In this document: one piece after another, positions 4,823 to 21,443 of the stretch
Position numbering within the stretch: the first letter of the stretch is position 1
Layout: each line of letters starts with the position of its first letter
DNA from: a virus
Reading direction: 5' to 3' (one strand)
Length of the DNA stretch: 38,945 nucleotides
IMG/VR virus record: IMGVR_UViG_3300035183_000236
Coordinates: 1 to 38,945 of that record
The notes under the pieces: model-generated
What the model was told of the DNA's origin: nothing
What the model saw: only the letters and a program-made list of their open reading frames with translations
The model's database searches: none
Translations under genes and position numbers: made by a program

Positions 4823-4851
4823 ATTATATCCAATTCAGTCCTGCCTGTCAA
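4823..4851 (-). promoter_or_regulatory. Perfect sigma-70 promoter for the SSB-like gene
   Basis: On the minus strand TTGACA (4851-4846) and TATAAT (4828-4823) are separated by exactly 17 bases. Transcription would start near 4816, giving a very short leader with the AGAGG ribosome site. The promoter lies inside the last codons of the polymerase C-half gene. Confidence 0.85.
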
Positions 4852-5563
4852 TACCCTGTTTTTGGTATTTATCCATGTCCTTGAGGTTAGGACCAATTTT
4901 AACCTCGCATGGAAACTTGCATGGCAAGTCTATATTCCAGATAGCCTTCACATTCTTCGGAAGGTAAATGTCAAATACATCGTACATGAGGTTGGCTACA
5001 TCTTTTGCTTCCTCCTCAGGGCAATCAGCAACGATCGAATCGTGGACAGTAGATACCAGAAGGGACCGCATCTTTTTTTCATTCATGTTCTTTCTTAGGC
5101 TTATTCTTGTTATTGCCAGAAGATCATTTCCAGTACCCTGCACTGGATAATTAGTCAAGACTGTCCACGGAATCATTCCGTTCTCTTTTAGTCCAACTAG
5201 CCATTCACGGCCAAGTGGTGAGCAAATAGGCTTGTTTCTTATAACCAGATCTGCAAGGTTTCTATGGTACTTGTCAATTCCTTTGTACTTGTCATAGAAC
5301 TTCCTGTTTATTTCATCCCAAAAGTCAGGATCATCAGAAACGCCCATAAAATCAGGATCATTAGCGAAACTCCAGCCAGAGCCGCGGTAAATAGTACGAA
5401 ATAGGTACTTTTTGGAGATAAGTCTCGTTGGTAGATTAAATGCCTTTTGATTCGCCGAATGAACATCTATTTCCTCATTAAGCTCACGAAGACCTACTGG
5501 ATCATTAGCCAGCCAGTTAAGAACTCGCCATTCCAATTGAGATGCATCACATTGCACATACAT
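4835..5563 (-). CDS. Family A DNA polymerase, C-terminal part (motifs A, B, C)
   Basis: The ORF starts right at motif A (MYVQCDASQLEWRV; catalytic Asp 6). It contains motif B/O-helix (RLISKKYLFRTIYRG, Arg47, Lys51, Phe55, Tyr59) and motif C (VSTVHDSIVAD, His174-Asp175). It therefore holds the catalytic fingers and palm halves but no exonuclease and no N-terminal palm. Those lie in the ORF at 5747-6868. The two parts should assemble into one enzyme or be joined by an unseen mechanism. The start ATG lies one base after the stop of the 62-codon ORF, so translation is probably coupled. Confidence 0.9.
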   Translation of the reverse strand: MYVQCDASQLEWRVLNWLANDPVGLRELNEEIDVHSANQKAFNLPTRLISKKYLFRTIYRGSGWSFANDPDFMGVSDDPDFWDEINRKFYDKYKGIDKYHRNLADLVIRNKPICSPLGREWLVGLKENGMIPWTVLTNYPVQGTGNDLLAITRISLRKNMNEKKMRSLLVSTVHDSIVADCPEEEAKDVANLMYDVFDIYLPKNVKAIWNIDLPCKFPCEVKIGPNLKDMDKYQKQGIDRQD

Positions 5564-5564
5564 C

Positions 5565-5753
5565 TTATTGCTTTTTCAAAAGAGCAGGGATCTGTCTTGA
5601 CATCTGCTTGAACGTAATCTTCTTTCTTAGCTCCTCGAATAGATCAGGATAAACTGATTCCATCTCCGAGATAAGATGAGAAAGCTCATCGTTATCCATG
5701 TGATCTTTCAGTCTCAGAATGGTGTAGTATATCGAATCGGTTTGTTTTACCAT
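5565..5753 (-). CDS. 62-aa ORF that splits the DNA polymerase
   Basis: A small, mostly helical, charged protein begins MVKQTDSIYYTILRL and ends PALLKKQ. It starts inside the last codons of the polymerase N-half (AAGATGGTAA: its ATG precedes that gene's TAA) and ends just before the C-half ATG. It has no homing endonuclease, intein or reverse transcriptase motif. It may be a selfish insertion, a polymerase subunit or linker, or a passenger. Its location exactly at the split makes it worth testing. Confidence 0.6.
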   Translation of the reverse strand: MVKQTDSIYYTILRLKDHMDNDELSHLISEMESVYPDLFEELRKKITFKQMSRQIPALLKKQ

Positions 5754-6868
5754 CTTGTCGTAATAAGCTGTTGTGCTTCATCTGAAAGATTTTGTATGTT
5801 CGGGGATTTGCTTGAAAGCCTACCTGTCCTTGCCACTACCTGAGTAAAAGTCGTATGCAAAAGGTTATCTTTCCAGTTCATTTCCTCATACAGCTTTCGA
5901 AATCCCTCATAGTAGGTTGTCTTTAGCTTGGTCAATTCCTTTATCTTAAGGATACTGTCAATGAGTTCTCGATCCCCTCCTTTGAGTTTCAAAAGATAAG
6001 TTTCATCTACTGACCAGAAACCTGGCTTTTTGAGTTCTGATCCTTTGACTGGAGTGAATTTCCTTGGAAGTGTATAAGTTACTTCCTCATTCCTAAGCTT
6101 AAGTTGTCCTTTTTTCTGTCCTGACTTATACACCCCATCAGGAACTTTAACGGTGAAAGTAAGATCGCCACCATAAAGTAAAGCAGAAAGGTGCTCGTTA
6201 GAATTCCAATTGAAGTTGGGAATGTTGTGATGAATAGAAAGCTTGTCCTGTATCTCCTTAATCTTGTCATCAACTTCTTTTTCTTTTTCTTTTGCTTTTT
6301 CTATGTCAAAGTGAATTCCATTCCATTCCATTTCAGCAAGTACTTTCAGATCTGCCATTGAGATCATCATCAGCTTTGCCTGATGTGGTCGCATTACACT
6401 CATTTGTTTCTTGTAAAGCTCATAAGTAAGTCTCACATCATGTAAAGCATACTCTGCCAGAACTTCCTTGGGAATCTTGTCAGTATTTATCCCATTGTTC
6501 CAATACTCTTTTTCGATGACATCGATCTTTGAGCCAAGTCCATACTTTTCGCACACACCATCTAGTGACGGATATGGGTTCTGCATCCTATTGTGGATAA
6601 ACTCGAACAGTTGACAGCACCAGATGGGTTTGTTCTTGATGTCTATATCCAGTTTCCTAAGCCAATGAAGATCGTACTTTGCGTTAAAAAATACAAGAAG
6701 ATCTGCCTTGTTTATTTTTTCTTCCAATGACTTCTTGTCATGAAACAATACACCCTCATCATCATCGAATTTATATGCAACACATACATTGATGTTTCTG
6801 GTATCGAATGGATTCCCTTTGTTGTAGATGGTGTTTTCAGTATCTATTGTAAGAATTTTCTTAGTCAT
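5747..6868 (-). CDS. Family A DNA polymerase, N-terminal part (3'-5' exonuclease and palm start)
   Basis: The exonuclease motifs are intact: Exo I TIDTEN (Asp9, Glu11), Exo II FFNAKYDLHWL (Asp66) and Exo III YALHDVRLTYE (Asp144). The thumb-like middle is Lys-rich. The C-terminus reaches the palm motif ARTGRLSSKSPNIQNLS and stops at QLITTRW. In ordinary family A enzymes that is only a few residues before motif A, which is where the ORF at 4835-5563 begins. The gene starts within the stop region of the 55-aa ORF (8-base overlap). Confidence 0.9.
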   Translation of the reverse strand: MTKKILTIDTENTIYNKGNPFDTRNINVCVAYKFDDDEGVLFHDKKSLEEKINKADLLVFFNAKYDLHWLRKLDIDIKNKPIWCCQLFEFIHNRMQNPYPSLDGVCEKYGLGSKIDVIEKEYWNNGINTDKIPKEVLAEYALHDVRLTYELYKKQMSVMRPHQAKLMMISMADLKVLAEMEWNGIHFDIEKAKEKEKEVDDKIKEIQDKLSIHHNIPNFNWNSNEHLSALLYGGDLTFTVKVPDGVYKSGQKKGQLKLRNEEVTYTLPRKFTPVKGSELKKPGFWSVDETYLLKLKGGDRELIDSILKIKELTKLKTTYYEGFRKLYEEMNWKDNLLHTTFTQVVARTGRLSSKSPNIQNLSDEAQQLITTRW

Positions 6869-10823: not shown

Positions 10824-11555
10824 TTACTCCGCAAAGTGAGGATGGTTTTTGAACATTTCTACATATTTAAGAAGGGTAGTCCCTTCCAGACCCGGCGCAG
10901 TATTTACTTCCAGCACCTTTAACTTTTTTGCATCCAGATCATAGATTATATCTACTGCACCAAAATCAAGCTCTAGTGCTTTAATTGTTTTAAGTGCCAG
11001 ATCCTCAATATTGTTAGGGATCTTTAGATCTTGTCTGGCAAAGATCCATCCATTCTTTCTGTTTCTAATGAATTCATTTTGTTTTTCATCCCGCTTTCGC
11101 TTCTTCTGGGTTATATCGAACACGTCGAATTTAGTGCAATGGATCCTAAACTCTTTTCTCTTTTGGATATATTTTGTATAGAAGTCTGCTTCGGGTACTT
11201 CATCTCCTTGATGTAAGATTTTGATTCCTTTGCCTTTTGACAATCCGTCTTTTCTTGCAAATACGATGTTGTCTTCGTCAAGCCATCTTTTTGCTACTTC
11301 TTTGTCGTCTGTGCTTTCTACGGCAGGAATACCATTCTGTTCTAGAATGGAATATAACTTTTTCTTAAACACTGCGCGTTCAACTGCATAATCCTTATTT
11401 AGCACCAGACCTGGGTTTTCAATCCATAATTTGCTACATCCCCAATTGATTCCTTTTTCGGTAACCATTTCTTTTCTGGATACTAGCCAGAAATTCAGCT
11501 CTTCTGCCAGTTTCCATACAGACTTGGAATGCCAACTATATGGTACGATAATCAT
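10824..11555 (-). CDS. ATP-grasp ligase (RimK-like fold)
   Basis: The ATP-grasp landmarks are in order in 243 residues: nucleotide-binding VFARKDGLSKGKG (98-110), KYIQKRKEFRIH (128-139), DFGAVDIIYD (197-206) and the metal-binding VLEVNTAPGLEGTT (214-227, with Glu216 and Asn218). The family joins a carboxylate, activated as acyl phosphate, to an amine or thiol. The gene overlaps the class II amidotransferase gene by ATGA, so the two are probably made together. It starts the ligase cluster that runs to 15447; the substrate is unknown. Confidence 0.8.
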   Translation of the reverse strand: MIIVPYSWHSKSVWKLAEELNFWLVSRKEMVTEKGINWGCSKLWIENPGLVLNKDYAVERAVFKKKLYSILEQNGIPAVESTDDKEVAKRWLDEDNIVFARKDGLSKGKGIKILHQGDEVPEADFYTKYIQKRKEFRIHCTKFDVFDITQKKRKRDEKQNEFIRNRKNGWIFARQDLKIPNNIEDLALKTIKALELDFGAVDIIYDLDAKKLKVLEVNTAPGLEGTTLLKYVEMFKNHPHFAE

Positions 11556-12781
11556 GTGAATACCCTTTCGTTACTTGCAACTGGAGTGCTACGATTATAA
11601 CAATCTCCGCAAAGGAGATGCCATTTCCCTTTTACATCTTCCCAAACCATCGTGTTGTAATGCTCATCAAGGAGAATTGACCTATTGCAGCCAGAGCATT
11701 CTTCTTTCTTGACTAGCTCAAGCCACTGTTTTCTTGGAATTAATTCATCCAGAGTGACTACTTCATCTTCATCGTCGTCTGGTTTTTCATCATCCCATTT
11801 GATGGTCCGGTATTTTACTTGATACATGAAGCTGTTGTTATGTTTTACTACGCTGCAACATTCTCCTGTTCCAATCTTACCTAGTAATGAATCAATCTTC
11901 TTGTCTGTCTTAAAGAAAATACGCCTGTTATCTTCATCGCTGCACATATAGACATATTGTCCTTTCTGTGAACTTTCAAACAAGCTTTCAACGATGAAGT
12001 TTATTTCTCCACCTTCCTTGTAATGAGGGGAAAGGTCATTCCAAAAACCTTTTCCAAAAACTGGAAAAAAATTTGTATGGCTTTCCCTTCTTGTTACAGA
12101 GACATAAAGATCATCACCTTTTTCTATTCCAGCAGCAGGATTATTAATATCCAAATGATATAAAGTATAACCATCGAAGTCAGATTTATCATCGAATCTG
12201 ATATTATTTCTGGTAAACAGATACTCTAAAGCAGACCTTTCTGACATTACATAAATAAAGTTTTGTGTGTTTGCATACGATAATGGCCTTTGATAATTCC
12301 TGTAGAAAGTAACTTTCTTGTCATTCAAGTCATACGTAACGATTGCCATAGAACCTGCGGTAGATTTTACGGCATCCTTCACTCCCATTTCCTTTATTTT
12401 CTTACAGAAAACAGTAGAGTCTGATTCTCCTTTTTCTGTTTTGACTGCTGTAAGTGTTCCGTTATGCAATAGAATCAGGTTGCCATTTACAAGAGGCTGT
12501 GCATTCTTTTTATCTACATCTCCGACGGTGGCATAACGGCAGTGACCAAACACTGCTACTGCATCTTTAAATTCTTCTTCGAATTTTTTCCAGCCCTTTT
12601 CATAATACAGGTTCATTACAGGGCCAATAGTTTTGATGATTCGAGCATCACCATTCTTTTTGATTAGGCATAGCCCGGTGCTGTCAGTGCCCCGTAATGC
12701 AGAAAGAAGCCCCATTTGATATAGGGCATCTTTGTTGATCTCCGTTCCGTTCTTTGAAATGATTCCGTAAATTCCGCACAT
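11552..12781 (-). CDS. Class II glutamine amidotransferase (Ntn hydrolase) with C-terminal zinc ribbon
   Basis: It starts MCGIYGII, so Cys2 becomes the N-terminal nucleophile. LLSALRGTDSTG (about 25-36), FGHCRYATVGD (78-88), LLHNGTL (104-110), ESDSTVF (119-125), GSMAIV and RNYQRPLSY match the glutaminase domain of GlmS/PurF-type enzymes. That domain hydrolyses glutamine and releases ammonia. No synthase or isomerase domain follows. Instead a 170-residue region ends in a CSGC...CGDC zinc-ribbon pair (about 367-396). The ammonia acceptor is therefore probably another protein of the cluster, such as the ligases next door. Confidence 0.82.
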   Translation of the reverse strand: MCGIYGIISKNGTEINKDALYQMGLLSALRGTDSTGLCLIKKNGDARIIKTIGPVMNLYYEKGWKKFEEEFKDAVAVFGHCRYATVGDVDKKNAQPLVNGNLILLHNGTLTAVKTEKGESDSTVFCKKIKEMGVKDAVKSTAGSMAIVTYDLNDKKVTFYRNYQRPLSYANTQNFIYVMSERSALEYLFTRNNIRFDDKSDFDGYTLYHLDINNPAAGIEKGDDLYVSVTRRESHTNFFPVFGKGFWNDLSPHYKEGGEINFIVESLFESSQKGQYVYMCSDEDNRRIFFKTDKKIDSLLGKIGTGECCSVVKHNNSFMYQVKYRTIKWDDEKPDDDEDEVVTLDELIPRKQWLELVKKEECSGCNRSILLDEHYNTMVWEDVKGKWHLLCGDCYNRSTPVASNERVFT

Positions 12782-12788
12782 TTTTGTC

Positions 12789-13601
12789 TCAGCGGGAGAG
12801 TTTATATGCTATGAACCTAGCATAAAACAGATTGTCTGGGCAGAGAGTTTTTTTCAAGAAGCTGGCTGTTTTACCGAAGACTTTGTCTAAAAGCTTTTCA
12901 TATTCTGATTGATCTTCAATCGAGTTCAAAATGTTTATAAGCTTTTTAACTTCATTGATATGAATGAACCTATGCAGCTTTGTTACAAGTTGTAAAAACC
13001 TCCGTATTTTCCTTACATCATGGGTTGTTTCCAAATGACGGAATTCTACTGTCCTGTAGTTATTTAGTGATTCCATCATGTCAAAAGCAAAGTATTTCTT
13101 CGGGGAGATTCCTACATCAAGTCCAATTACAGGAACACAATAAGGATTTGCTTTTCTTAAAGGATCTACGAATCCAAAGAATTCTTCTTCAAAAAGAATA
13201 TAATATGCAAACAGAAGATAAAGTTTTTCTTTTGTTAGCCTTGAAACATTATTGTGAACGTGAATCCCGGTTCTGTGAGAAACTCTGCATTGGGCAAGGA
13301 ATGGCTCGATTTCTGCCAATGCATAATCAATTCCGCTGCTGACAAGGGGAATCGAGCAGAACTCTATTCCATCCCTTAAAGAACCATCCTTTATCGTCTT
13401 CCAGTAGAAGAGTGGTTCATTTTTCAGCATTGGGTCAATGAATTTGTATCCCTCTATTTCAATTTCAATACCTATTGGGTTAGACACCCACCCCATATAG
13501 GTTTTCAATCCGGGAAATTTTTTCCTTCCATATTCGATCTGAGGATACAATTTTGTTTCTACATCCTCAGCGTGGCTATAAATTTCATAAACTATGGGCA
13601 T
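12789..13601 (-). CDS. Putative amidoligase (glutamine-synthetase-like COOH-NH2 ligase)
   Basis: The 270-residue protein has GIEIEIEG (44-51), KDGSLRDGIEF (71-81), HRTGIHVH (109-116) and YRTVEFRHLE (182-191). These Glu, Asp, His and Arg residues are the expected metal/ATP-binding set of amidoligase-2 type enzymes, which form amide bonds. A GTG at 13613 could extend it by 4 residues, but the ATG at 13601 has a GGGG ribosome site at proper distance. It lies between the amidotransferase and an unknown cluster protein. Confidence 0.75.
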   Translation of the reverse strand: MPIVYEIYSHAEDVETKLYPQIEYGRKKFPGLKTYMGWVSNPIGIEIEIEGYKFIDPMLKNEPLFYWKTIKDGSLRDGIEFCSIPLVSSGIDYALAEIEPFLAQCRVSHRTGIHVHNNVSRLTKEKLYLLFAYYILFEEEFFGFVDPLRKANPYCVPVIGLDVGISPKKYFAFDMMESLNNYRTVEFRHLETTHDVRKIRRFLQLVTKLHRFIHINEVKKLINILNSIEDQSEYEKLLDKVFGKTASFLKKTLCPDNLFYARFIAYKLSR

Positions 13602-14143
13602 TTTAGTCCCCACTTGTTGAGAATGAATTTAGGAACTAAATGAAATAGTCTAGGGGAAACTTCATCATTTTTATAGAAAAGTTTTCCGTCAATATAACAG
13701 AAATTACCACATATGTTTTCATGCTCCATTCCGCTAGTGATGAATGAAGCATAACTGAATAATGCGGGATTACCTTCTACCGAATCATATAGAAATTTCT
13801 TTTCTCTTTTATCGTAATAAAAGAGATTATAGTTTAATGAACTGATTCCTACTTTGAATACATTTTCGTTTTTCCTTTGTAGGAAATATATGTAGTTACT
13901 GTGTGGAAATAAACACGATGGAAAATAGAAATAAGTTGGTTTTGCCTTTGTTGATAAAAACTTTCCGCCATCCTTTTTCCACAAATTTACTATTAAATCA
14001 TCTAAAGATGAGATGAATCCGAATAGAAATTCTTTATCGGTATAAACACAAGAAAAAGAGTCTCCCCATTTTCTTACGAGATCATTAATTGAATCTCCAT
14101 TCACTGGGAGATTAAACTGAGGTTTATAGGGATGAGTATACAT
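13592..14143 (-). CDS. Unknown protein of the amidoligase cluster
   Basis: The 183-residue protein is rich in Phe, Tyr and Lys and begins MYTHPYKPQFNLPVNGDS. I recognise no family and no obvious catalytic motif. It overlaps the COOH-NH2 ligase gene by 20 bases and the amidoligase gene by 10, so it belongs to the same transcript. It could be the acceptor protein, a substrate-binding subunit or an unrelated passenger. Confidence 0.6.
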   Translation of the reverse strand: MYTHPYKPQFNLPVNGDSINDLVRKWGDSFSCVYTDKEFLFGFISSLDDLIVNLWKKDGGKFLSTKAKPTYFYFPSCLFPHSNYIYFLQRKNENVFKVGISSLNYNLFYYDKREKKFLYDSVEGNPALFSYASFITSGMEHENICGNFCYIDGKLFYKNDEVSPRLFHLVPKFILNKWGLKCP

Positions 14144-14912
14144 ATTTATTTACCATCTCAGAGATTTCTTCGTCATTTCCTCGCAGGAGAATCTGCTGAA
14201 CTTCATCAGGAACTTCTAACTTGTAGAAGTTTTCCCAAGCCGTCATGACGCAGTTGTATACCATCTCCATTGTCTGCAAACTCTGCGTCCAGAAATTACT
14301 TGGCGTCCTGTATTCTAGACCATACGGCTTGAATCGGAACGCACCCGGTCTACCGTAAAGCTCCTGCCTGCGCCGATCCTTATCCATTAGCATCAAAGGT
14401 GCATCTAGGAAAAGGTCCAGTAGTTTCACGAACCGTATCTTGTCCTCTTTGTTTCCCTTGAATCCAATGTGGATATGTCCTCCAGCAGACCTAAGGAACT
14501 TGTTTTGTGATGCTGGATTAGGATTTGGTTTACGTGTCCATGCGTTGTAATCAGGATCGCACCCAAATACCCAAGCGAACGGATTATTCATCTCCTCTTT
14601 TGGCATGATATAAGAAGGAACGATGAGTGGCTTAAGCCCCTGTTTTTGAAGTTCCTCTTTAATCTTGCTTTGGATTAGCAGATTGAAATCGAGCCACTCA
14701 CTTTTGCATGTAGCTGGTGGGATGTTGTATTCAAGCAGGACGTTGTCTTCCTGAACGCAAAAAGGGAATTCTTTTCCTCGGATTTTCTCAGTAAACAAAA
14801 CACGAGGTTCTTGCTTGGTGCCTCCGATCTTTCCAATTGCTGAGACTACTTTTCCATCTTCGGTTTGAAGGAACCATTCCGGATCACAGCCAAGGGAGGG
14901 ATACTTCACCAT
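14124..14912 (-). CDS. Phage COOH-NH2 ligase
   Basis: It contains LGCDPEWF (7-14), VQEDNVLLEYNIPPA (53-67), FGCDPDYNAW (116-125), GGHIHIGF (144-151) and PYGLEYRTPSNFW (196-208). These are the conserved blocks of the phage-type COOH-NH2 ligase family, a second branch of the glutamine-synthetase-like fold distinct from its neighbour at 12789. The family is proposed to make amide bonds with ATP. Having two different ligases in one operon suggests two successive condensation steps or two substrates. Confidence 0.8.
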   Translation of the reverse strand: MVKYPSLGCDPEWFLQTEDGKVVSAIGKIGGTKQEPRVLFTEKIRGKEFPFCVQEDNVLLEYNIPPATCKSEWLDFNLLIQSKIKEELQKQGLKPLIVPSYIMPKEEMNNPFAWVFGCDPDYNAWTRKPNPNPASQNKFLRSAGGHIHIGFKGNKEDKIRFVKLLDLFLDAPLMLMDKDRRRQELYGRPGAFRFKPYGLEYRTPSNFWTQSLQTMEMVYNCVMTAWENFYKLEVPDEVQQILLRGNDEEISEMVNKYVYSSL

Positions 14913-15447
14913 TGAATTTCTCCTCTACAAGTTGACGAAGCATTTGGTTGAATTTGCAATTCTTTGGCATCCATTCTGGATGTGCCTGAATTGCAAGCGC
15001 GTTTAGTCTAGGTAGATACAGAATTTCGACATCTTTATCCACTACCTTTACAGGATTTTTGTCTTCACTCCATCGGTAAGGATACAAAGGTTCTGTAGTA
15101 GTAGCGATGATTTCTGCATCCTCGTCAGGGATCATCATCTGATGATGTGTGGAGTTAGAATAAACTTTTTCTACTCCATCTTTTAGCTTTAATTCTAGTT
15201 CATGCGGAACAGTGCCGGCATGCTTTTCTACATGCTGCCAAAGTTTTCCGCCGTGAATTACACAAAGAAGTTGAGCGCCACGACAGATGCCGATAATAGG
15301 ACGTTGACTTTTTACAGCTTCATTGATTAGCTTGATCTCTTTTAAGTCACGTTGAGAAGGTTTAGCCGGTGCATTGGTATGCACAGGTTTTTGTCCGTAT
15401 AGGGATGGGGAAATGTCTTCACCTCCCCATAAAAACAGTGCAGACAT
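14884..15447 (-). CDS. Class I glutamine amidotransferase-like hydrolase (peptidase C26 / PuuD type)
   Basis: The catalytic triad is visible: Cys55 in IIGICRGAQ, and His156 and Glu158 in QAHPEW. WGGEDISPSLYG at the N-terminus and STHHQ (99-103) are typical of gamma-glutamyl hydrolases such as PuuD. It may cleave a gamma-glutamyl bond or supply ammonia. An in-frame start at 15480 exists, but the ATG at 15447 has an AAAGGA site. The 3' end overlaps the ligase gene by 29 bases. Confidence 0.82.
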   Translation of the reverse strand: MSALFLWGGEDISPSLYGQKPVHTNAPAKPSQRDLKEIKLINEAVKSQRPIIGICRGAQLLCVIHGGKLWQHVEKHAGTVPHELELKLKDGVEKVYSNSTHHQMMIPDEDAEIIATTTEPLYPYRWSEDKNPVKVVDKDVEILYLPRLNALAIQAHPEWMPKNCKFNQMLRQLVEEKFNGEVSLPWL

Positions 15448-15448
15448 T

Positions 15449-16099
15449 TTATTGTCCTTTTCTTGGAGAATAACCGGCAAAAATTACACCCAAATTTGCT
15501 GCATCATTTATAAGCATATCCGTTTTATTCCTAAGATCTTCGATCGCTTTATCAAGCTTGAATGAGTGTAAACTGTATCCTTTTGCACTTCTTGCGAAGT
15601 TAAAGAGTGATAATCCGTGTACAGCAGCACGATAAAACAATCCTTTGTTTGTCAGGACAAGAAATTTACCTAAAGGATCTTTAGGTTTTTCTCCTGTAAG
15701 TCTCAGTGGATTTTTGACATTATTTTCGTTTTTTATTCCTACACTGGATTCATTTTCCACTGGCTGTCTGGCTAACAGCACAGCCAAGTGCATAATGTTC
15801 CATTTGTAGTTATGTTCAGGAAATTCCCATACATAACCATTGAATTTTTTCTTTTTCACGTCTTCAAATTCAGGTTCTTCGTCGGCTTGTTCTATTTTTA
15901 TAACTTTTATTTCAAATGCTTTTTCTATTGTTTCGAGCCAATCGACAATGACATTATGCCTTTCCGAGATAAATTTGTTCTTGAAACCTACATACTTTAA
16001 TTTCTTTTCTTTCACCAAATTCCCAAAGACACCTCCAGCACAGATACGCTCAACGAAGTGCATAGGTTTATCTTTTGTGGATGTATACAGGTAGCACAT
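15449..16099 (-). CDS. Hypothetical protein, 216 aa
   Basis: The protein begins MCYLYTSTKDKPMHF and contains two Trp/His patches (YVWEFPEHNYKWNIMHL) and a Lys-rich middle. It lies 1 base from each neighbour, so it is part of the same operon as the ligase cluster. No family recognised; it may be a further component of the pathway. Confidence 0.55.
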   Translation of the reverse strand: MCYLYTSTKDKPMHFVERICAGGVFGNLVKEKKLKYVGFKNKFISERHNVIVDWLETIEKAFEIKVIKIEQADEEPEFEDVKKKKFNGYVWEFPEHNYKWNIMHLAVLLARQPVENESSVGIKNENNVKNPLRLTGEKPKDPLGKFLVLTNKGLFYRAAVHGLSLFNFARSAKGYSLHSFKLDKAIEDLRNKTDMLINDAANLGVIFAGYSPRKGQ

Positions 16100-16693: not shown

Positions 16694-16981
16694 TTATTTT
16701 ACACCAACTAATCCTTTAACTCGTCCTGCATTACCGAAGCCTCTACCTGAGCCATCGTAGTAGCATCCACCATGACAGTTGGCGAAGCCAGTACCATCGC
16801 CGTGTCCGTTTCCGTATCCATCACCATCTCCGTATCCGCTGCCATTTCTGACACCATAGCCATAGCCGTAGCCGTCCCCGCAACTGTAACCACATCCAAA
16901 ACCCATGCCGTCGTAGTAGCCATAGCCGTACCCGTCACCACGGCCTCCAACATCTTCATCATTATCACCAACTGGTAGCAT
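16694..16981 (-). CDS. Gly/Tyr/Asp-rich low-complexity protein
   Basis: Nearly the whole 95 residues are GYG, DGYG and GDG steps (for example GDGYGYGYYDG and GYGDGDGYGNGHGDG), with scattered Cys and His (GFGCGYSCGDG, NCHGGCYYDG). I chose the ATG at 16981 because it overlaps the previous TAA as TAATG with GGGGG upstream; an ATG 12 bases earlier is possible. Such proteins could bind metal or phase-separate, but no function is known. Confidence 0.6.
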   Translation of the reverse strand: MLPVGDNDEDVGGRGDGYGYGYYDGMGFGCGYSCGDGYGYGYGVRNGSGYGDGDGYGNGHGDGTGFANCHGGCYYDGSGRGFGNAGRVKGLVGVK

Positions 16982-17283
16982 TAAAGCCCCCATTTGTCGT
17001 GAACTGGAACGGAAAACACTTCGCTGTGAGCGGGAATGTCTACATCATCTATTTTTCGAATTTCTGCGTCTTTTGGATTTCGAATCACTCCGTCGAACCC
17101 TACAGAAGACCAACGGAACACCCACACAGCGTTTGACAAGTAGATACGTCCATCCTTTCGTGTTACATCCCCTGCAAAAATCCAACCACGGTCTACAACC
17201 ACAACAGCACGGTTGCCGGATGGCTTTGAATCAGCACGCACATATTCAACACCATTGATTGTGATTTTGTTTTCCTGAGTCAT
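16981..17283 (-). CDS. Conserved small phage protein (DUF6948-like)
   Basis: The protein carries RAVVVVDRGWIFAGDV, GRIYLSNAVWVFRWSSVGFDGVI and NPKDAEIRKIDDVDIPA. I associate this arrangement with a small family widespread in phages, probably DUF6948, of unknown function. An AAGGAGTAAATC site precedes the ATG. The stop overlaps the next start. Confidence 0.6.
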   Translation of the reverse strand: MTQENKITINGVEYVRADSKPSGNRAVVVVDRGWIFAGDVTRKDGRIYLSNAVWVFRWSSVGFDGVIRNPKDAEIRKIDDVDIPAHSEVFSVPVHDKWGL

Positions 17284-17386: not shown

Positions 17387-17463
17387 TGGTGGGCCGTACA
17401 GGATTCGAACCTGTAACCCGCCGATTATGAGTCGGCTGCTCTAACCGATTAAGCTAACGGCCC
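17387..17463 (-). tRNA. tRNA-Ile2 (anticodon CAU)
   Basis: On the minus strand the 77-nt cloverleaf has a 7-bp acceptor stem GGGCCGT/ACGGCCC, discriminator A, and an encoded CCA end. The T-loop is GGTTCGAATCC, and the anticodon arm GCCGACTCATAATCGGC has loop CTCATAA. The arm matches bacterial tRNA-Ile2 (as in ileX) rather than Met tRNAs. The CAU anticodon would be changed to lysidine-AU by host TilS and read AUA codons, which are common in AT-rich phage genes. Confidence 0.9.
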
Positions 17464-21398: not shown

Positions 21399-21432
21399 TT
21401 TTTCGAATTTTGACTTGACAAAATTCGAAAAA
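21399..21432. promoter_or_regulatory. 14-bp perfect inverted repeat covering the -35 of the late promoter
   Basis: TTTTTCGAATTTTG (21399-21412) and CAAAATTCGAAAAA (21419-21432) are exact inverted copies around ACTTGA. The second arm includes the end of the -35 hexamer and most of the spacer. A protein bound here would block or remodel polymerase binding. Confidence 0.7.
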
Positions 21433-21443
21433 TATGCTATAAT
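21415..21443 (+). promoter_or_regulatory. Perfect sigma-70 promoter for the rightward (packaging/virion) operon
   Basis: TTGACA (21415-21420), 17 bases, TATAAT (21438-21443). Transcription should start near 21450 and give a leader of about 250 bases before the first gene. It is the only consensus promoter seen for the whole right arm. Confidence 0.9.

Follow-up and report, generated by a model that had tools for sequence, protein, structure and literature searches.

The stretch of DNA analysed here, the 38,945 nucleotides of IMG/VR virus record IMGVR_UViG_3300035183_000236 (hereafter the window), belongs to a tailed phage, as marked by its terminase, portal, head, DNA polymerase and helicase genes. 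Our study concerns a cluster of putative amide-bond-forming genes at positions 10824-16099, whose products were compared with the families of Pfam, PHROG and NCBIfam. The original prediction, made from the letters alone, had described seven adjacent genes on one strand; this observation is confirmed, with all seven open reading frames (ORFs) present on the minus strand at the predicted positions, and the family matches bear out its ATP-grasp ligase, Cys2 class II and class I amidotransferases and two ligases. The order is GAT1 (class I glutamine-amidotransferase-like), CNL (a phiEco32-type COOH-NH2 ligase), a protein of 183 amino acids (aa), AL2 (an Amidoligase_2 protein), GAT2 (a class II glutamine amidotransferase), the ATP-grasp ligase and primase/helicase, with a 216-aa ORF directly 5' of GAT1. 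Judged from gene content and order, the cluster is a divergent member of the amidoligase cluster of LUZ24- and phiEco32-type phages, in which GAT1 replaces a protein of the GGCT family.

The ATP-grasp ligase (10824..11555, minus strand; 243 aa) resembles RimK and the alpha-L-glutamate ligases. It matches PF08443 (RimK; E = 1.7e-5) above the Pfam cut-off and phrog_2599 (1.5e-54), and both in the PDB and among curated families it comes closest to alpha-L-glutamate ligases such as S6--glutamate ligase. The best NCBIfam matches, MptN (3e-12) and rimK_fam (1.6e-10), both lie under their cut-offs, and against the curated RimK alpha-L-glutamate ligase subfamily the protein reaches 40.9 bits for a cut-off of 143.4. 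Homologues encoded in phage and IMG/VR loci were aligned, 60-89 per family, and all counts of catalytic residues given here derive from these alignments. K64, D202 and E216 occur in 75/75 sequences and N218 in 73/75; the window protein keeps the first three. GAT2 (11552..12781, minus strand), an N-terminal-nucleophile (Ntn) amidotransferase that lacks a synthetase domain, matches GATase_6 (1.2e-12) and begins MCG. It retains C2, present in 74/75 homologues, and R82, N107, G108 and D121, present in 80/80, and it has a C-terminal CxxC...CxxC pair that is shared by 29 of the 69 long members. AL2, a putative glutamine-synthetase-like COOH-NH2 ligase, occupies an ORF at 12789..13613 (minus strand), with its true start most likely at ATG 13601 rather than 13613. 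It matches phrog_7469 (3e-19) and falls slightly under the Pfam cut-off for Amidoligase_2 (PF12224; 7.8e-4, 19.8 against 22); no sequence match was found in the PDB. Seven residues (E52, D76, E84, H118, H120, E190 and R192) are present in 89/89 homologues, and the window protein keeps Glu52, Asp76, Glu84, Glu190 and Arg192.

CNL (14124..14912, minus strand) matches PF14395 (1.2e-12) above the Pfam cut-off and phrog_3815 (2.6e-65); a protein with 100% identity is also encoded on a 54-kb contig. D10, E12, D56, E61, R141, H146, E200 and R202 are found in 88/88 homologues, with Asp10, Glu12, Glu61, His146, Glu200 and Arg202 kept in the window. The AlphaFold model of CNL (mean predicted local distance difference test, pLDDT, 95.6) supports a glutamine-synthetase-fold ligase: in a Foldseek search it matched glutamine synthetases, with a best E of 1.7e-5, as well as gamma-glutamylmethylamide synthetase and YbdK (E 1.5e-4, TMq 0.53-0.55; 4e-5 for a relative from Salmonella). 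GAT1 (14884..15447, minus strand; ORF open to 15480) belongs to Peptidase_C26 (PF07722; 4.9e-22, 79 bits against a cut-off of 20.5), in the PuuD-like gamma-glutamyl hydrolase group. Two gamma-glutamyl hydrolases are among its best curated NCBIfam matches; the best, gamma-glutamyl-GABA hydrolase (2.7e-10), lies under its cut-off, and the PuuD equivalog gives 40 bits for a cut-off of 266. The triad C66, H167 and E169 (numbered from 15480) is present in 60/60 homologues and intact in the window. The most likely start is ATG 15447, behind AAGGAC, and GAT1 would therefore not overlap the 216-aa gene; the overlap expected there falls away, while the predicted ORF coordinates stand. Loss of catalytic residues in homologues, named beforehand as a possible refutation, is not what the alignments hold, since these residues are near-invariant in 60-89 homologues per family. 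The enzymes of the cluster look intact and are probably active.

Two of the seven proteins had been described as being of unknown family. This no longer applies to the 183-aa protein (13592..14143, minus strand), which was recovered by a profile hidden Markov model (HMM) built from relatives without the window sequence (E = 3.1e-5) and is, by this measure, a divergent member of an unnamed conserved family that we call X183. In 82 of about 96 loci a family member lies between CNL and AL2, and two loci scored as lacking one (L011 and L014) hold an ORF of 231-234 aa in that slot. Its members match PHROG 11055/4877, for which no function is annotated; no match was found in Pfam, and its alignment has no tag-like tail. 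The predicted structure of an X183 relative (pLDDT 95.6) gave weak, non-significant SH3/Tudor-like matches in the PDB (best E 0.026); in BFVD its matches were all to uncharacterised proteins of phages. We do not assign a function from it. The 216-aa protein (15449..16099, minus strand) stays an orphan: no match was found in Pfam, PHROG or NCBIfam, nor any relative in the searched IMG/VR loci apart from the identical contig, and the gene may or may not belong to the cluster. Proteins that evolve fast and bear a CCG (or CFA) motif are found repeatedly beside GAT1 and CNL elsewhere, up to about 1.5 kb 5' of CNL (loci L011, L015, L021, L039, L041, L052, L074, L080, L082 and others), some as tandem pairs, and in locus L094 the CC motif lies inside a longer GAT1 ORF. 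HMM support for a kinship of the 216-aa orphan with these CC[G/F] proteins was absent.

Comparison with described phages removes the claim that the pathway is undescribed, as the cluster is already known, in identical order, from LUZ24-like and phiEco32-like phages. In the LUZ24-like Pseudomonas phages tf, UFV-P2 and PaP3 (L002) the order CNL, ~190-aa protein, AL2, GAT2, ATP-grasp, primase/helicase is that of the window, although the proteins share only ~25-42% identity with those of the window, and C26 GAT1 is absent from these phages, which have GGCT and MazG-like genes; the GGCT of phage tf is annotated as BtrG-like. The phiEco32-type cluster of the Gordonclarkvirinae, such as EP335 (L003), has the same families in the same order, but with GGCT in place of GAT1, extra small genes in between and an unusual start of the GAT2 reading frame. 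In both EP335 (L003:10400-10900) and BUCT695 (L004:10700-11250) the annotated GAT2 lacks the MCG start and the DNA upstream reads stop-KICGIVLAG; an AUU start codon or a spliced or inserted exon would fit this sequence, and a group I intron was not supported, with no match in Rfam. The Zobellviridae-like phage KZY1 (L005) shares with the window C26 GAT1, CNL, an X183-family protein, AL2 and ATP-grasp, but its GAT2 precedes CNL rather than following AL2. No other annotated relative in the comparison comes closer to the window in ATP-grasp (39%) or GAT1 (35%). The window thus holds the PF14395 ligase, AL2, class II amidotransferase and ATP-grasp in one operon and in the order of the described clusters; GGCT (PF06094, AIG2/YtfP) was not found in the window record, where C26 GAT1 is present instead.

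The genes occur together widely, as the original prediction required of a pathway, and the search that it proposed for the same gene order in other phages found it in LUZ24-like and phiEco32-like phages and in IMG/VR loci. CNL has matches at E <= 1e-5 in 311 of 50,697 GenBank phage records and on 580 IMG/VR contigs; ATP-grasp matches 310 phage records, with a host spread nearly equal to that of CNL. The arrangement is not a chance one: about 100 phage loci share its genes and their order, most commonly as [GAT1]-CNL-~190-aa protein-AL2-GAT2-ATP-grasp-primase-DnaB (80 IMG/VR loci and the named phages). The loci were picked by similarity to a bait protein, are related to one another and may come from fragmentary records; those with enough flank were counted as complete. 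With CNL as bait, AL2, GAT2 and ATP-grasp are present in 62/62 complete loci, and so is GAT1 or GGCT (38 GAT1 only, 18 GGCT only, 6 both, 0 neither). Because C26 GAT1 stands in for GGCT in 38/62, GGCT does not define the wider group. With ATP-grasp as bait, AL2 and GAT2 are present in 45/45 complete loci and CNL in 40/45; the 5 loci that lack CNL also lack the X183 family, C26 and GGCT, even when their whole 41-67 kb records are searched. AL2, GAT2 and ATP-grasp are thus a constant trio. In the pooled set of 94 non-identical loci, CNL is accompanied by C26 or GGCT as the gamma-glutamyl-cleaving enzyme in 89; CNL and such an enzyme are both missing in 5, and 0 have one alone, a pattern suggestive of a block, usually including the X183 family, that is present or absent as a unit. 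The mutual exclusion of GAT1 and GGCT stands out strikingly in the raw counts, but with only about four changes on the CNL tree we do not claim it as an independent statistical result.

Two known systems resemble parts of this arrangement. PuuD acts after PuuA in bacterial putrescine breakdown, removing a gamma-glutamyl group, and this pairing of a glutamine-synthetase-fold ligase with a C26 hydrolase is like that of CNL with GAT1; the pathway has no ATP-grasp, AL2 or class II amidotransferase, and the window GAT1 scores below the PuuD equivalog cut-off. Butirosin side-chain synthesis combines the ATP-grasp ligase BtrJ with BtrG, a GGCT that strips a gamma-glutamyl group, but it uses an acyl carrier protein, of which none is seen in the window cluster, and the window lacks GGCT. 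Gamma-glutamyl groups can be removed by C26 (PuuD-like) as well as by GGCT (BtrG-like) enzymes, two unrelated kinds of protein, and their alternation beside a glutamine-synthetase-fold ligase suggests by analogy that CNL attaches such a group and that C26 or GGCT removes it.

Our structural comparison and locus data, coupled with established knowledge of the Puu and butirosin pathways, suggest a model for the cluster in which we infer substrates, step order and product from families, catalytic residues, the CNL fold, gene order and co-occurrence. We propose, with a probability of about 0.5, that it encodes a pathway building an amide-linked, peptide-like product. The core trio would work jointly, with GAT2 freeing ammonia from glutamine or acting on a gamma-glutamyl amide, and the ATP-grasp ligase and AL2 activating carboxylates with ATP and coupling them to amines. 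CNL, as a small glutamine-synthetase-fold enzyme like YbdK or gamma-glutamylmethylamide synthetase, would furnish an intermediate with a gamma-glutamyl amide or a similar one, to be stripped off later by GAT1, or by GGCT in other phages, in the manner of PuuD following PuuA and of BtrG in the making of butirosin; the 183-aa protein would be a conserved partner. The target would most likely be not the bulk DNA bases but something made during infection, either a small peptide-like compound or a component of the envelope. Virion preparations of phage SU10 contain ATP-grasp, GATase and YtfP-type proteins (PMC4281155), so genes of the cluster are expressed. A cell-wall modification against superinfection has been attributed to Iyer et al. 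2009 for phiEco32 (PMC10580990; PMC11318856); these two citing papers report no test of such a role. Several points weigh against our proposal. The co-occurrence pattern reflects at most 3-4 independent changes on the trees, only one of them on well-supported branches, and the pairing of CNL with a cleaving enzyme is for this reason suggestive and not statistically established. GAT1, ATP-grasp and GAT2 all lie far under the NCBIfam equivalog cut-offs, so that the exact reactions cannot be read from the sequence. The window GAT1 is shorter at its N-terminus than its relatives, and the 183-aa protein has lost the main motif of its family, RxPxRQWxRG in most relatives and RKNENVFKVG in the window, so the window copy may be altered. 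Our literature searches found no demonstrated product or substrate, in keeping with the original statement that a product is not established.

An alternative is that the cluster makes an amide- or aminoacyl-linked modification of DNA bases or nucleotides that guards phage DNA from restriction. In the window, as in most loci, the genes for primase and DnaB helicase directly adjoin the cluster, but the DNA of phage tf, whose cluster is syntenic, is cut by RsaI, HpaI, EcoRV, SmaI and HaeIII (PMC3517423), which disfavours dense base modification, and the ends of phiEco32 were mapped by restriction profiling (PMC9965538). The deaminase near the cluster, which had been read as compatible with a modified-base or nucleotide-linked product, has homologues at just 10 CNL loci out of about 96, as far as the fetched stretches reach; its link to the pathway is weak and it is not part of the core. 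The Gordonclarkvirinae, which carry the cluster, are remarkably restriction-resistant and lack a known modification pathway, although the authors of the BASEL study propose a dCTP deaminase/nucleotidyltransferase route instead (PMC11990801). This resistance keeps a DNA-linked role alive; on balance we regard the DNA reading as unlikely. More speculative still is a version in which the product is an amide-linked compound or DNA adduct not known before, which would shield infecting phages from restriction and other defences, with X183 as a new component needed for its transfer; this is a long shot, but, if true, such a shield would explain the restriction resistance of the Gordonclarkvirinae.

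The kinship of the ATP-grasp ligase with glutamate ligases raises the prospect that it tags a protein of the host or phage, such as a ribosomal protein, with glutamate or a short peptide, while the other enzymes make or trim the tag. However, the protein scores at least equally well against the small-molecule ligase MptN, and the cluster holds no conserved substrate protein except possibly the X183 family, whose alignment has no tag-like tail; we consider protein tagging improbable. Least probable of all, and in our judgement barely tenable, is an auxiliary nitrogen metabolism supporting ammonium assimilation by the host, a role put forward for Phage-ZRK32. Phage particles have been reported to promote growth, and cluster genes were named (PMC10945688), but that study has no gene-level test, and such a role does not explain three ligases. 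The ZRK32 record (L006, OP650935.1; host Poriferisphaera, Planctomycetes) looks like part of a Pseudomonas podovirus genome: across 83% of the 15 kb fetched, its DNA is 84% identical to that of Pseudomonas fluorescens phage SCYZ1, and its remaining matches are all to Pseudomonas-type phages, which makes the Planctomycete link doubtful. Both the host assignment and the nitrogen-metabolism claim deserve re-checking.

Elsewhere in the window, a lone tRNA-Met (CAT) gene lies upstream of the cluster at 17387-17463 (minus strand), and a 99-aa low-complexity ORF rich in glycine and tyrosine (GYGYGYYDG repeats) at 16694-16993. The DNA polymerase is divided between two ORFs (4835-5563 and 5747-6868), a split that an insertion or an intron would fit, as described in LUZ24-like phages. 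Three perfect sigma-70-like TTGACA-17-TATAAT sites are present, at 19755-19727 (minus), 9827-9799 (minus) and 21415-21443 (plus), and terminator-like hairpins number 34 against 14.4 in shuffled sequences. No promoter is assigned to the cluster, because one such hairpin (18696-18677) sits between the site at 19755-19727 and the cluster.

Hundreds of sequenced phages carry this pathway, none with a known product. What our analysis adds is the constant trio of AL2, GAT2 and ATP-grasp, the tie of CNL to an enzyme that cleaves off gamma-glutamyl groups, and X183 as a sixth, unnamed family. This modular pattern leads to a concrete chemical hypothesis for a pathway of tailed phages, and laboratory phages that carry the cluster exist.

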